Of a stretch of DNA of 64,000 nt, positions 31,632 through 38,099 are shown piece by piece; position 1 is the stretch's first letter; each line of letters opens with the position of its first letter. Position numbers and translations under genes: made by a program. This DNA comes from Acidobacteriota bacterium (GTDB taxonomy: Bacteria; Acidobacteriota; Terriglobia; Acidiferrales; UBA7541). The notes below the pieces were generated by a model. That model was not told the origin of the DNA, did no database searches, and saw nothing but the letters and a program-made list of their open reading frames with translations. The stretch is taken from positions 1 through 64,000 of the forward strand of contig QHYK01000076.1 of assembly GCA_003224085.1 (NCBI GenBank), read 5' to 3'.

Positions 31632-32081
31632 TTACTCAACGGATTCGGGTTCGAGGCTCAGACCGCCTTCGCCATTGGCCTTTTTTTCCCAGTACTTGCG
31701 GACCCAGGCTTCCCAACTCTTTCCCGCAGCGGTGTCTCTGCCCGTAAAGGAAAGTGCCGCAATATTGGCGTAAGCAATCTTTACTTTCTTGTTGGCGTCC
31801 TTGGGTATGACGCGCACAAAGCTGTCATGGAGGGAATTCCCTAAGACTCGGTCGAAGATGTAGCCCTCGATTTTTGAATTATCTTTAAGCGTCAGCGTCA
31901 CATCTCCACGGTAATCGAACGCTTTCTCCAAGGCCATGCGCAACTCCTCTTCGCTGGCAAGTTGCGGAACCCAGCCTTGCACGGTCTCGTGCAGAGTTCC
32001 CGGAGCGACCTCCAGATTGTCCGGATCGAGCGGAGACCCTTCCGTGTGACTGGGACGGTCAGCATGACGGGGACCACTCAT
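31632..32081 (-). CDS. Sm-like protein translationally coupled to hpnH
   Basis: A 149-residue cytoplasmic protein. The N-terminal 45 residues are polar and probably disordered. Residues about 55-115 ([21 protein letters not shown] ... [15 protein letters not shown]) look like a small Sm/LSm-type beta-barrel, in which GD-x-VTLTL-DGSxxEGYI strands are typical. A charged Trp-rich tail follows. The ATG overlaps the hpnH stop as ATGA, so it is co-translated with hpnH. I know no function for it in hopanoid synthesis; the domain assignment is by eye. Confidence 0.6.
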
Positions 32082-33205
32082 ACGCGGGTTTCCTCAAACT
32101 GGCCTTTGGCCGTGTCGATTTGAACGAGCCGATTGTAAGAGTGCACTGGCTTGACGGGCTCATTCAACATCGCCAGCGCGTCGGGGTCAGAGTAACTTGT
32201 GGACAGGCTCGCTTTCACCGTATCCCAGAGCCCCCGCCAGCTGCTGAACGTGTAATCTACCGCGGAAGCCTCGTAACCGCTGTGCACCATGCAGTTTCCA
32301 CACTTGGGATTGCCAGACTCCGTGCCGTACTTTTTCCATTCGGTGGAGTCGATCAGTTCCTGAAACGTATCCGTGTAGCCGTCCTGCAGCAAGTAGCAGG
32401 GCTTTTGCCAGCCGAACACGTTGTATGTGGGCATACCCCACGGCGTGCAGGCATAGTTGTGCTTGCCCATCAGAAATTCCAGAAAAAGCGGCGACTGGTT
32501 GAATTTCCAACTCTTTTTGCGGTTCGCCAGAATCGCGCGGAACAGCCGGCGCGTGCGCGCGCGGCCCAGGAAATGCTTTTGATCCGGCGCTTTGTCGTAG
32601 GAGTAGCCGGGAGACAGCATCATGCCTTCTACACCTACTTCCATCATTTCGTCGAAGAAGGCGCGGACGCTCTGGGGATCGGCGCCGTCGAACAGCGTCG
32701 TGTTCGTGGTCACGCGGAAGCCGCGCTTCAACGCTTCCTTAATTCCATCCAGAGCCAAATCGTAACCGCCTTCGCGACACACCGAAAAATCGTGATGCTC
32801 TCTCTGCCCATCCATGTGAACGGAAAACGTCAGGTATTTGCTGGGCCTAAAGAGATGCAGTTTTTCCTTGAGCAGCAGGGCGTTGGTGCACAGGTAAATG
32901 TACTTTTTCCGCTGGACCAGCCCCTGCACAATCTTGTCGATTTCCGGGTGCATCAGCGGCTCGCCGCCGGGAATGGACACCATCGGCGTGCCGCATTCTT
33001 TTACGGCCCTGAAGCAATCCTCAGGCGACAATTCCTTCTTCAGAATGTGCGCCGGATATTGGATCTTTCCGCAGCCCGCACAGGCCAGGTTGCAGCGGAA
33101 CAAGGGTTCGAGCATCAGCACGAACGGGTAACGCTTGCGCCCCCTGAGCTTCTGTTTGAGGACGTACGTGGCAACCGTCCACATCTGTGAGACTGGTACC
33201 GGCAT
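32078..33205 (-). CDS. hpnH: Adenosyl-hopene transferase HpnH (radical SAM)
   Basis: A 375-residue radical-SAM enzyme that adds the adenosyl group to diploptene, the first step in making extended hopanoids. Cluster-binding Cys 38, 42 and 45 (CNLACAGC) sit inside the very typical [20 protein letters not shown], followed by VSIPGGEPL and the C-terminal Cys-rich region [12 protein letters not shown]. Near full-length identity in motifs to the HpnH family. The ribosome site AGGGGAA precedes ATG 33205. The remaining hopanoid genes (shc, hpnG and others) are not in this window. Confidence 0.95.
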
Positions 33206-33486
33206 TTCCCCTGCTTATCGTGACTTGGAATAGGGGTACACCCAGCACCCCCAGAGTCTCTTTGCCAAAACCGAGACTGTAGCTCTATTGTACCCGAGAA
33301 CTCGCGAAATCCACGCGGTTCGTTTTGGTTACTTGTGCAATCACTTCCTGAACTGGCACAGGAAATGCACCGGTTCCTCCGATGCAGGCAACCGCGGAAA
33401 CGGAATACCAGGCGCCACCTCGCGTCTTTGCGGAAGCTTCGGAGGTAAAATCGACACCTGGTCAAGGCAAAGAAACTAAGGCCTTT

Positions 33487-36039
33487 ATGGCGCGACAAAG
33501 TCTGCTTACTCTGTTCGACGATTTTGCTCGCTTCGCCCGAGATGTTGCCGTCGTGCAAAGCCGCGGGTACCGCCGGGAAAAAGTGACGTATGCGGAATTG
33601 TCGGCTAACGCGCGGCTCTATAGTCAGGTGCTTGCAAAATGCGGAATCGCCGCGGACGATCGCGTGCTGCTCTGGGGATCCAACTCCGCGGAATGGGTTG
33701 CGTGTTTCTGGGCCATCCTTTTCTGCGGTGGAGTGGTGGTGCCGATGGACGCAACCTCGTCTCCCGATTTCGTTGAGCGGGTCATCCAGGATGCCGGCGT
33801 GAAGCTGATCCTGCGAGACCGGCAGCAAACGCAGCAAACGGACCATCCTGGCTCGCCTCCCTCACTGAGTATCTCCGAATTGAAGGAGGTCGCGACGGAG
33901 TCGCGGCTCGAGCCAAAAGGAGGAGCCGACCCGAGTAAGGCTGCTTCGCGAGATTCCGTTGCTGAGATTCTTTACACCTCAGGAACGACCGCCGACCCGC
34001 GCGGCGTCGTCCTCACGCACGGAAATTTCCTGGCGAACCTGGAGCCGCTCGAACGTGGCATTGGCGAATATCGAAAGTACCAGCGTTGGTTTCATCCCTT
34101 ACGTTTCGTGACGCTCGTTCCGCTGAGTCACGTATTCGGCCAGTTCATGGCCCTGTTTGTTCCGCCGCTCCTCGGCGCGGCCATCGTTTTCGAGCCGTCC
34201 ACGAATCCAGGGGAAATCATTCGAAGCGTGAAACGGGAGCGCGCCACTGCGCTCATCGCAGTGCCTCGGATGTTGGACCTGCTGAAAGCCGGGTTGGAGC
34301 GCGAGAAGGAATCACAAGGGAAATCCCAGTCGCTTGAGCGCAGGCTCGAACGAGCCAGCGGACGAAAATTCCTTTGGCGCGCGTGGATGTTTCGGCGCAT
34401 CCATCGCCGTTTTGGCTGGAAATTCTGGGCTTTCCTCTCCGGTGGCGCGGCGCTTTCGGTTGACACGGAAAGTTTCTTCAGGCGAATGGGTTACGCCGTT
34501 GTTCAGGGATACGGAATGACCGAAACCGCGGCGCTCATCAGCTTGAATCATCCGTTCCGTGCGACGGAAGGTTCTGTGGGCAAGATTCTTCCGGGCCGCG
34601 AATTCAAGCTGGCCAACGACGGCGAAATTCTCGTGCGGGGAGAAAACGTCGCCGCAGGTTATTGGAAGAGTGGGGCTCTCGAGCCGTCCAACGAAGATGG
34701 CTGGCTGCATACCGGCGATCTCGGGGAAACGGACGCGGAAGGGAATCTTCGCTTTCGCGGGCGCAAGAAGAAAGTCATCGTCACGCCGGCAGGCTTGAAC
34801 ATTTATCCCGAAGACCTGGAAATTGCGGTGCGCAAGCAACCCGGAGTGCGCGATTGCGTTGTCATTCCGTTCGAACGCGACGGCAACGCGGAAGCGTGCG
34901 CAATTCTCCTGATGCAGGATTCGAACCAGTCTGCTGCAAGGGCTGCCGTGGATTCAGCAAATGCCCTGCTCGCAGAGTATCAGCAAATTCGGCAGTGGCT
35001 CGTTTGGCCGGAGCTGGATTTTCCACGCACCTCAACCGGAAAGCCACGCCTACCGGCCATCACCGCCCGCGCCGTTGCATTCCTGGATGGTCATCAAACG
35101 GAAGCCCTTCGGGAAGCCAAAAGGGGGCCGTTGAATGGCCTGCTGGATAAGTTCAACCGTTCTGGCTCCGCCTCCCCCAACGTGGAAAAGGAGCTGAATC
35201 TGTCTTCCCTCGATCGTGTCGAGCTGATGAGCAACCTCGAAGAAATGTTCCACGTGGAACTAAATGAAACGGCCTTTTCCGAAGCCAAGACCGTTGCCGA
35301 CGTCGAGCGCCTTTTGCAACAACCCGCTGCCCGCTCTGACCAATACACTTATCCGCGCTGGGCCCAGTGGGAGCCGGTCAGGTGGTTCCGGCTGGCGGTT
35401 TACTATGCCCTGGTTTGGCCCGCCACGCAGATTCTCGGGCATCCGCGAGTCGTCGGCCGCGAGAATCTTCGGGACCTCCACGGGCCCATCCTGGTGGTGT
35501 CCAATCACATCACTCGCCGCGCGGACCTAGGGCTGATCCTAGCCGCACTCCCAATGCGTTACCGCCACTATCTTGCAGCCGCGATGGGCGGCGAAACTTT
35601 GCAAAACATGCGTCATCCGCCGCGCGATTGGTTTCTTGCAAAACGGTGGGCCTACCAGCTTGGCTACTGGCTGGTCCGCGCCCTCTTCAACGTTTTCCCA
35701 TTGCCGCAGCTCTCCGGCTTCCGCGAGAGCTTTCGCTTTGCCGGTGAATTGGTCGATCGCGGTTACAGCGTGCTCATTTTTCCGGAAGGCGAAGTGAACA
35801 ACTCCGAGGACGGGCGCATGGCGCCTTTTCAATCTGGCATCGGACTGCTCGCGGAGAACTTGCGCATTCCCATAGTTCCGATGCATCTGGACGGCGTGTG
35901 GCAAATGAAGCGGGAGCGCCGCCGCCTCGCTCACACCGGCGAAATCACCGTTCGAATCGGCGCGCCCGCCACCTTCGCTCCCGGCACTCCTCCCGACGAA
36001 ATAGCTCGCTGCCTGGAATCCACCGTCCGCTCTCTGTAG
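33487..36039 (+). CDS. Trimodular acyl-ACP ligase - ACP - PlsC-like acyltransferase fusion
   Basis: About 850 residues (885 if the in-frame ATG at 33382 is used). Part 1 (about 1-530): AMP-forming ligase with YTSGTTADPRGV, QGYGMTETAALISLNH, DGWLHTGDLGE and catalytic Lys in TSTGKPRL. Part 2 (about 545-615): a short acyl-carrier-like domain with LSSLDRVEL, where the phosphopantetheine site reads SSL rather than DSL. Part 3 (about 640-850): a PlsC/LPA-acyltransferase domain with SNHITRRADLG, FPEGEVNN and IPIVPMHLDGVW. It would charge a fatty acid onto its own carrier and pass it to a lipid acceptor, as Aas does in two modules. The catalytic H-x4-D reads H-x5-D here. It is divergent from hpnH. 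Confidence 0.87.
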   Translation: MARQSLLTLFDDFARFARDVAVVQSRGYRREKVTYAELSANARLYSQVLAKCGIAADDRVLLWGSNSAEWVACFWAILFCGGVVVPMDATSSPDFVERVIQDAGVKLILRDRQQTQQTDHPGSPPSLSISELKEVATESRLEPKGGADPSKAASRDSVAEILYTSGTTADPRGVVLTHGNFLANLEPLERGIGEYRKYQRWFHPLRFVTLVPLSHVFGQFMALFVPPLLGAAIVFEPSTNPGEIIRSVKRERATALIAVPRMLDLLKAGLEREKESQGKSQSLERRLERASGRKFLWRAWMFRRIHRRFGWKFWAFLSGGAALSVDTESFFRRMGYAVVQGYGMTETAALISLNHPFRATEGSVGKILPGREFKLANDGEILVRGENVAAGYWKSGALEPSNEDGWLHTGDLGETDAEGNLRFRGRKKKVIVTPAGLNIYPEDLEIAVRKQPGVRDCVVIPFERDGNAEACAILLMQDSNQSAARAAVDSANALLAEYQQIRQWLVWPELDFPRTSTGKPRLPAITARAVAFLDGHQTEALREAKRGPLNGLLDKFNRSGSASPNVEKELNLSSLDRVELMSNLEEMFHVELNETAFSEAKTVADVERLLQQPAARSDQYTYPRWAQWEPVRWFRLAVYYALVWPATQILGHPRVVGRENLRDLHGPILVVSNHITRRADLGLILAALPMRYRHYLAAAMGGETLQNMRHPPRDWFLAKRWAYQLGYWLVRALFNVFPLPQLSGFRESFRFAGELVDRGYSVLIFPEGEVNNSEDGRMAPFQSGIGLLAENLRIPIVPMHLDGVWQMKRERRRLAHTGEITVRIGAPATFAPGTPPDEIARCLESTVRSL

Positions 36040-37631: not shown

Positions 37632-38099
37632 ACGGATTTTCTTCAGAAATTGAGCACTCAACTGATTCACAAAAACCAAGTGATTATGGTTGAGACGCTC
37701 GGCACCAAGAACCTACTTAAGAATCGCCGCTTAGCCAGAGCCATCTCGGATGCGGGCACAGGTGAGTTCGTTCGTATGTTGGAATACAAGTGCAAGTGGC
37801 CTGGAAGAACGCTCGTCAAAGTAGCTAGGTTCTTCCCGTCATCAAAGTTGTGCTGCATTTGTCACCAAAAGAATGTAGACCTCAAACTCCAAGACCGTTG
37901 GACGTGTTCGAGTTGCCATACCGAACATCAGCGGGACGAGAATGCCGTCGTAAACATTTTCGTCCAAGGTTTGAGAATCTTAGCCGAGGGACGCTCGGTA
38001 TTAGCCTGTGGAGGCACAGTAGGACCTAAACGCGAGTTTAGGCGTGGGCCCGGGAAGCAGGAAACATCGTCGGAGGTATGTGGCCATGTCGCACAGTAA
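37632..38099 (+). pseudogene. tnpB: C-terminal fragment of a TnpB (IS200/IS605) RNA-guided nuclease
   Basis: About 155 residues: DFLQKLSTQLIHKNQVIMVE leads into LLKNRRLARAISDAGTGEF, then the zinc ribbon CCICHQKN and CSSCHTEH, and the last RuvC acidic residue in RDENAVVNI, ending ACGGTVGP. These are the C-terminal third of TnpB. The N-terminal two thirds, including the first RuvC Asp, are missing, and upstream similarity (HGDIRLHGF) lies in another frame. It therefore cannot cut DNA. It is immediately followed by the element's right end, and its last codons overlap the start proposed for sucA. Confidence 0.85.

Follow-up and report, generated by a model that had tools for sequence, protein, structure and literature searches.

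Architecture of the fusion gene

The window analyzed here, the whole 64,000-nucleotide stretch at positions 1 to 64,000 of contig QHYK01000076.1 (assembly GCA_003224085.1 of a soil bacterium; Acidobacteriota, Acidiferrales, UBA7541), carries on its forward strand a gene that fuses an acyl ligase, an acyl carrier, and an acyltransferase of the lysophospholipid acyltransferase (LPLAT) type in one chain, divergent from hpnH (Table 1). This arrangement, proposed in the original prediction from the sequence alone, was borne out by three Pfam domains and by the TIGR03470 score of hpnH. The product is probably an active, self-loading membrane-lipid acyltransferase, and the unusual spacing of its catalytic motif is a genuine feature of its clade. 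In order along the chain, Pfam identifies AMP-binding at 235 bits, PP-binding at 21.7 bits (slightly above its cut-off of 20.8), and Acyltransferase at 42.2 bits, against a cut-off of 23. A Pfam scan at an E value of 0.01 returned these three families only, with no reductase domain among them, and none of the 25 NCBIfam families listed for the fusion, out of 109, reached its cut-off. The open frame holding the gene spans 33382 to 36039 (885 codons). The originally predicted start at 33487 (Met36 of the frame) is probably better than 33382, since the similarity common to more than the closest relatives begins at about Met36.

A scan of genome contigs yielded 157 relatives, the best 80 of which (L001 to L080) were aligned with the window protein to give the 81 sequences underlying the counts below; among these 80, the closest relatives came from metagenome-assembled genomes (MAGs) of Acidobacteria gp2. 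Lys554 of the ligase, Ser609 of the carrier, and His709 and the P-E-G motif of the acyltransferase were invariant in all 81 sequences, and Asp715 was kept in 80, the exception (L080) being broken at the motif. The ligase also retains its customary ANL-type motifs (Table 1).

Table 1. Features of the fusion gene and its surroundings (positions in the window unless a genome is named)
Feature	Position	Strand	Remarks
Gene fusing an acyl ligase, an acyl carrier, and an LPLAT acyltransferase	33487..36039	+	Counted from Met36, 850 aa; frame open from 33382
AMP-binding (ANL) domain	33526..34665	+	Pfam PF00501, 235 bits; P-loop YTSGTTADPRGV, motif YGMTETA, TGD; motifs viewed in 80 relatives
Ligase C-terminal part	34666..35061	+	FRGRKKKVIVTPAGLNIYPEDLE and lysine K554 (PRTSTGK); K554 in 81/81
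Acyl carrier domain	35134..35331	+	Outer limits estimated; Pfam PF00550 stretch 35191-35316, 21.7 bits
Predicted phosphopantetheine Ser609	35206-35208	+	In LSSLD; Ser609 in 81/81
LPLAT (PlsC-like) acyltransferase domain	35344..36036	+	Pfam PF01553; model pLDDT 87.4; PlsC 5kym_A Z 17.8
Catalytic motif H709-ITRRA-D715 (H-x5-D)	35506..35526	+	Arg712-Arg713 = CGC CGC pair
Motif-II-like stretch FNVFPLPQ	35686..35709	+	Counterpart of PlsC motif-II Arg: Gln776 by eye, Ser778 in profile alignment
Motif III P-E-G	35782..35790	+	Invariant, 81/81
hpnH, adenosyl-hopene transferase	32078..33205	-	TIGR03470 546.5 bits, cut-off 225; divergent neighbor, outside the fusion
149-aa protein without Pfam family	31632-32081		Next after hpnH; overlaps hpnH end by 4 bases
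ATTGTA (TACAAT on minus strand)	33287..33292	-	Possible -10 element of hpnH; kept in 17/18 intergenic regions
TGGCA-N7-TGC element	33354..33368	+	118 bp before start codon; sigma-54 -24/-12-like or imperfect palindrome
H-x4-D paralogue loci (NHVTYLDIAW type) and partners	G412 (L159, L169), G429 (L160, L176), G428 (L133, L162), G438 (L141, L161)

Distribution and origin of the H-x5-D motif

The catalytic motif of the acyltransferase reads N-H709-I-T-R-R-A-D715 in the window protein, that is, H-x5-D rather than H-x4-D, just as first described, and this spacing was common to 22 of the 81 aligned sequences (the window, L001 to L019, L026, and L038); with the exception of L080, the remainder read H-x4-D. 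Two other accounts, both raised along with the prediction, are rejected. A local sequence error or frameshift is incompatible with the recurrence of the motif in 21 further genome-contig loci and, within the order, in 21 loci of other genomes (two sets that probably overlap in genomes). A relocated Asp is excluded as far as the sequence goes, D715 being the sole acidic residue within 16 positions after the His in all 22 H-x5-D sequences. Within the clade, the motif follows N-H-[IVT]-[TA]-[RST]-R-[AS]-D. The extra residue looks like a one-codon insertion of Arg, with codon duplication as the simplest account, because the window codons at this place (ACT CGC CGC GCG GAC) include a CGC CGC pair and because three H-x4-D relatives (L035, L101, and L148) read N-H-[IV]-T-R-[AS]-D, which is one residue short of the H-x5-D motif.

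Sampling across the window's order recovered the fusion, at times in pieces, in 53 of 61 genomes at an E value of 1e-100. The H-x5-D form was present in 21 of the 23 sampled genomes of the window's genus; the other two (G412 and G429) had only an H-x4-D paralogue, and two members of the genus (G428 and G438) had both forms together. Elsewhere in the order, the best copy was readable in 29 of 30 fusion genomes, one being H-x5-D (G415) and 28 H-x4-D, counts that leave out G447 and the second copies of G416 and G417 (unreadable) and of G421 and G398 (not fetched). At the level of the phylum, whose membrane lipids are unusual, 94 of 396 sampled acidobacterial genomes matched the acyltransferase domain at an E value of 1e-30; among the 30 loci listed from that sample were the window itself, 27 others with H-x4-D, and two (L112 and L116) unreadable by pattern. 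In a tree built without the motif columns, 21 H-x5-D sequences fell into one clade with an SH-like approximate likelihood ratio test (SH-aLRT) value of 100. L019, the remaining H-x5-D sequence, stood apart on a branch with a value of 91 (the tool's mark is 95), and the tree requires two changes; one or two origins of the form are possible on this topology. By its distribution, H-x5-D is a genuine clade marker that is nearly universal in the sampled genus. Our literature search found no description of this form in the family of ligase-carrier-LPLAT fusions, and a search directed at such fusions in Acidobacteria yielded no paper.

Carrier site and acyltransferase domain

The carrier site of the window protein reads L-S-S609-L-D, and the original prediction was correct in giving SSL in place of DSL. 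It does not hold as an oddity: with Ser609 invariant, the residue preceding it was Ser in 62 of the 81 sequences, Asp in 9, Thr in 5, Gly in 3, and Asn in 2, and the nine with Asp form one clade that includes Pyrinomonas, Chloracidobacterium, and a Blastocatellia MAG. An odd or defective carrier site is thereby ruled out, and SSL is, by the alignment, the normal state of the fusion family. Two genes of the phosphopantetheinyl transferase family are present in the window genome.

The acyltransferase domain shows no sign of decay. For pairs of sequences with 55 to 80% ligase identity, the ratio of acyltransferase to ligase divergence was 0.75 (standard deviation, 0.13; 198 pairs) among H-x5-D members and 1.11 (standard deviation, 0.16; 1,219 pairs) among H-x4-D members, the pairs not being independent of one another and the comparison omitting L019 from both groups and L071 and L080 from the H-x4-D group. 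The domain is thus relatively more conserved in members with the longer spacing, the reverse of what decay would give, and decay is rejected. The partial inactivation that the SSL and H-x5-D readings had been thought to suggest is unlikely, because His and Asp are kept, because of this higher relative conservation, and because active H-x5-D enzymes have been published. That the domain is partly or wholly inactive, leaving an acyl ligase with a carrier, is scarcely credible given the invariant His, the retained Asp, and the H-x5-D acyltransferases reported as active (SalA and the fungal Sct1/Gpt2). One half of what had looked unusual, the carrier site, is ordinary, and the other half, the motif spacing, is compatible with full activity; both counsel caution before an enzyme with H-x5-D or a carrier with SSL is labeled inactive.

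AlphaFold2 models were obtained for the window domain (mean predicted local distance difference test [pLDDT] score, 87.4) and for the H-x4-D domain of L060 (90.2). The two models agree: the His follows its strand as the second residue, and, counted from the Asp, the helix ends at +7, the next helix starts at +10, and the next strand starts at +16. Since the offsets around the motif are equal in the two models, the extra residue is predicted to lie between the strand that leads to the His and the core of the Asp-bearing helix, with the place of the Asp relative to downstream elements unchanged. Structure prediction, which had been suggested as a check on the His/Asp geometry, agrees to this extent with a normally placed Asp, but the motif block itself was modeled at a lower confidence, with a pLDDT of 79 (81 in the L060 model). 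The window model matched the PlsC structure 5kym_A with a Z score of 17.8 and a root mean square deviation of 3.2 over 191 aligned residues (22% identity). Besides known acyltransferases, the structure matches included 7zkq_T, which belongs to an assembly intermediate of complex I (Z score, 14.6).

The counterpart of the PlsC motif-II Arg depends on how the motif-II-like stretch is aligned. Placed by eye, FNVFPLPQLSG matches the IPVDRG region of a PlsC-like protein on contig C41 of the same genome, and position 776 is the counterpart; the profile alignment leaves PQ unpaired and selects position 778. Among the 22 H-x5-D sequences, position 776 was Gln in 21, with Arg in the remaining one; among the other 59, it was Arg in 31, Gln in 18, Lys in 8, Thr in 1, and Ala in 1. 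Position 778 was Arg in none of the 81 and Ser or Thr in all 22 H-x5-D sequences. Nearby, Arg781 was found in 78 of 81. These alignments leave room for a head group other than that of lysophosphatidic acid (LPA), yet neither position tells the H-x5-D from the H-x4-D form.

The hpnH neighborhood

The hpnH gene lies 281 bp from the fusion start at 33487. Among the relatives, 17 of 21 H-x5-D loci have a divergent hpnH next to the fusion (the contig of L010 stops at the gene), and none of the 59 other loci, several with short flanks among them, has hpnH adjacent. For the order sample, hpnH was within the flank in 15 of 18 H-x5-D loci (L130 to L147) and 0 of 11 H-x4-D loci (L148 to L158); the H-x5-D loci of the two sets probably overlap in genomes. 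The adjacency that the original prediction had singled out is therefore real but is not a feature of the whole family. Because the unrelated genes lipA and odhA are kept around these loci as well, the link is mainly a gene order shared at the level of the genus. The fusion and hopanoid genes also occur apart: at the cut-offs used, the 98% complete genome G398 has the fusion in two pieces and neither hpnH nor squalene-hopene cyclase, and G424 has the fusion and no hpnH; G396, G405, G443, and G449 have hpnH and the cyclase and no fusion; and G412 and G429 lack the fusion at the locus between odhA and hpnH, with hpnH remaining in place. A single hpnH of the window genome exceeds the cut-off; its one squalene-hopene cyclase lies on a different contig. 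In cultured Acidobacteria, hpnH has been reported to be clustered with shc (PMC5462960). A literature search found no paper joining acidobacterial hopanoids, an acyltransferase, and hpnH.

The hpnH proteins of the order sample fell into two score groups, about 498 to 557 and 375 to 444 bits. The lower-scoring kind adjoins a squalene-hopene cyclase in several genomes (e.g., G415 contig C88 and G397 contig C2), and the higher-scoring kind adjoins the fusion in most genomes of the window's genus; two groups with different neighbors suggest that hpnH was replaced or transferred. The 149-aa protein next after hpnH has a homologue beside hpnH in all 17 relative loci with hpnH and also in L168, from another genus. 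Downstream of the fusion, a short frame (37650-38099) with a CxxC...CxxC zinc-ribbon stretch overlaps the start of a 2-oxoglutarate dehydrogenase-like frame and presumably resembles the end of a transposon-associated TnpB/OrfB-type protein. Two of the fusion genes aligned above, from records titled Betaproteobacteria (L014) and Bacillota (L035), were placed among acidobacterial sequences in the tree, and L014 also shares the window's odhA and regulator genes (82 and 85% identity, respectively); both MAG labels are probably wrong.

The region between hpnH and the fusion contains a conserved element, TGGCA-N7-TGC, found exactly in 16 of 18 intergenic regions and with one base off in the other two (L012 and L015). 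In 13 of the 17 loci besides the window, the end of the best 16-base match lies 116 to 119 bp upstream of the start codon; in the rest the distance is 72 (L012), 112 (L018), 131 (L015), and 148 (L017) bp. The short pattern occurs 6 times in the whole window against 3.1 expected, so that a lone occurrence is meaningless and the evidence lies in its recurring position across species; among 57 other loci, the longer pattern scored as high as 9 of 11 in just one (L033), at another place. The window genome has rpoN. The sigma-54 consensus has a T before TGC, the base preceding TGC in the element was G in 12 and A in 6 of the 18 copies and never T, and a palindrome, GGCAC-N5-GTGC, fits several of the copies. 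Two loci that have no fusion (L169 and L176) retain the element as well, and it therefore cannot simply be the fusion's own promoter. These three points weigh against a sigma-54 promoter of the fusion, and the element may be either sigma-54-like or palindromic.

Proposed function and alternatives

Taken together, the analyses make it likely that the fusion is an active, self-loading membrane-lipid acyltransferase resembling ElbD of Myxococcus xanthus minus its reductase domain. The domains, catalytic residues, conservation, clade distribution, and predicted fold support this directly; carrier loading, acyl transfer, and the kind of acceptor are what we infer from sequence. The N-terminal ANL ligase would adenylate a free fatty acid and pass the acyl group to the internal carrier, on the phosphopantetheine arm of Ser609. 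With the acyl-carrier as its donor, the C-terminal PlsC-like domain would then esterify the free hydroxyl of a lyso-lipid that is most likely glycerol-based; His709 would act as the base and Asp715 as its partner. The Arg insertion would lengthen the loop that joins the strand ahead of the His to the Asp-bearing helix, the Asp being kept in place.

Several points weigh against this proposal. ElbD, the closest described architecture, showed no acyltransferase activity in vitro according to the review that describes it (PMC9131029). The carrier is matched weakly by PP-binding, and over its second part only, and the motif block of the structural model has lower confidence. A full Aas is already encoded in the genome, so that plain lysophospholipid recycling by the fusion would be redundant. 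Four other PF01553 proteins, all H-x4-D, were found in the window genome at an E value of 0.001. The genome encodes the Aas on contig C61 (NF006386, 1,403 bits; cut-off, 1,221), which has the order MFS-PlsC-ligase and no fused carrier; a chain on the minus strand of contig C18 (292-3240; L172) composed of a carrier, a ligase scoring best with fatty-acyl-AMP-ligase-type models, and an H-x4-D acyltransferase; and one PlsC-like protein each on C41 and C65. Given these enzymes, the window enzyme probably has another task or handles other fatty acids.

A changed acceptor might be what the extra residue marks: H-x5-D enzymes of this clade would then acylate a lipid unlike ordinary lysophospholipid, as SalA does a sulfonated aminolipid. 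In SalA, as described (PMC8319176), the H-x5-D spacing accompanies a non-phosphate head group and the loss of an Arg thought to bind the phosphate of LPA, and an Arg opposite the motif-II Arg is likewise missing in 21 of 22 (position 776, by eye) or 22 of 22 (position 778, by profile) H-x5-D sequences; the coexistence of both forms in G428 and G438 is what a division of work would predict. However, the Arg is also missing in 28 (position 776) or all 59 (position 778) of the other sequences and does not separate the forms, the yeast H-x5-D enzymes are described as using glycerol-3-phosphate, and the occurrence of the H-x4-D type alone in G412 and G429 suggests that the two forms overlap. The uncertain counterpart of the motif-II Arg lowers the standing of a changed acceptor, which we regard as unlikely, and raises that of the self-loading acyltransferase. 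Equally doubtful is the broader proposal that an Arg codon gained in one genus ties H-x5-D to a distinct lipid acceptor, in parallel with SalA and the fungal glycerol-3-phosphate acyltransferases (GPATs). If true, H-x5-D would recur among LPLAT enzymes as a signature from which a change of acceptor could be read. A clade-wide change in a textbook motif, together with coexisting forms, offers a natural experiment on spacing versus acceptor.

We consider it less probable still that the chain feeds the synthesis of ether or membrane-spanning lipids in the manner of ElbD. The Myxococcus protein is described as having FAR1-like, ligase, carrier, and AGPAT-like domains, with homologues in other phyla almost all lacking FAR1 (PMC9131029); ElbD homologues have been reported in 15 of 97 acidobacterial MAGs from the Black Sea (PMC11868695), and some Acidobacteria are reported to produce ether and membrane-spanning lipids (PMC10087280). 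Yet the fusion has no reductase domain, its likeness to ElbD is one of described domain anatomy and not of compared sequences, and the ether-lipid producer Solibacter usitatus is reported to lack ElbD (PMC10087280). No elb-type gene was seen among the identified neighbors (the window genes and ten neighbor proteins of H-x4-D loci), in which no search was aimed at elb genes.

Acylation of bacteriohopanepolyols together with HpnH, for which the divergent pairing in most H-x5-D loci of both samples speaks, is very improbable: that pairing is missing from the 59 other loci, the fusion and hopanoid genes each occur without the other among the 61 genomes, and hpnH remains where the fusion is missing (L169 and L176).

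Comparison with known systems

In fusing ligase, carrier, and AGPAT-like domains in one chain, the window protein matches ElbD and its FAR1-less homologues as described (PMC9131029), and its anatomy is the one reported for the latter; it differs from ElbD, by the same described anatomy, in having no FAR1-like reductase and in the H-x5-D spacing of its clade. The ligase and carrier activities of ElbD were confirmed in vitro, according to that review (PMC9131029). Aas (NF006386) likewise couples fatty-acid activation to PlsC-type acylation within one chain, whereas the window protein has the order ligase-carrier-PlsC, has no MFS domain, and scores 119.6 bits with the Aas model against the cut-off of 1,221.

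The spacing has its own precedents. SalA, the roseobacter sulfur-aminolipid acyltransferase, is described as a PlsC-like protein with H-x5-D; in the corresponding report, this spacing is strictly conserved in an environmental SalA set, a homology model has the His and Asp adjacent, and the counterpart of the motif-II Arg is missing (PMC8319176). The likeness is again by description, and the ligase and carrier fused in the window protein are not mentioned for SalA in the text available. The fungal GPATs Sct1 and Gpt2 are reported as active LPLAT-type enzymes with H-x5-D (PMC4207751, PMC7613133), although they are eukaryotic and act on glycerol-3-phosphate (PMC7613133). PlsC of Thermotoga maritima (PDB 5kym) shares the fold and the P-E-G motif of the window domain, but it reads H-x4-D in a HMMER alignment, is titled an LPA acyltransferase, and has no fused domains. 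The PF01553 score, the PlsC fold, and the P-E-G motif all speak for LPLAT membership; the departure from H-x4-D spacing does not exclude it, because H-x5-D is known from published members. Judged by its anatomy, the fusion would work like a self-loading Aas or the core of ElbD, with a motif spacing already known from SalA and the fungal GPATs.

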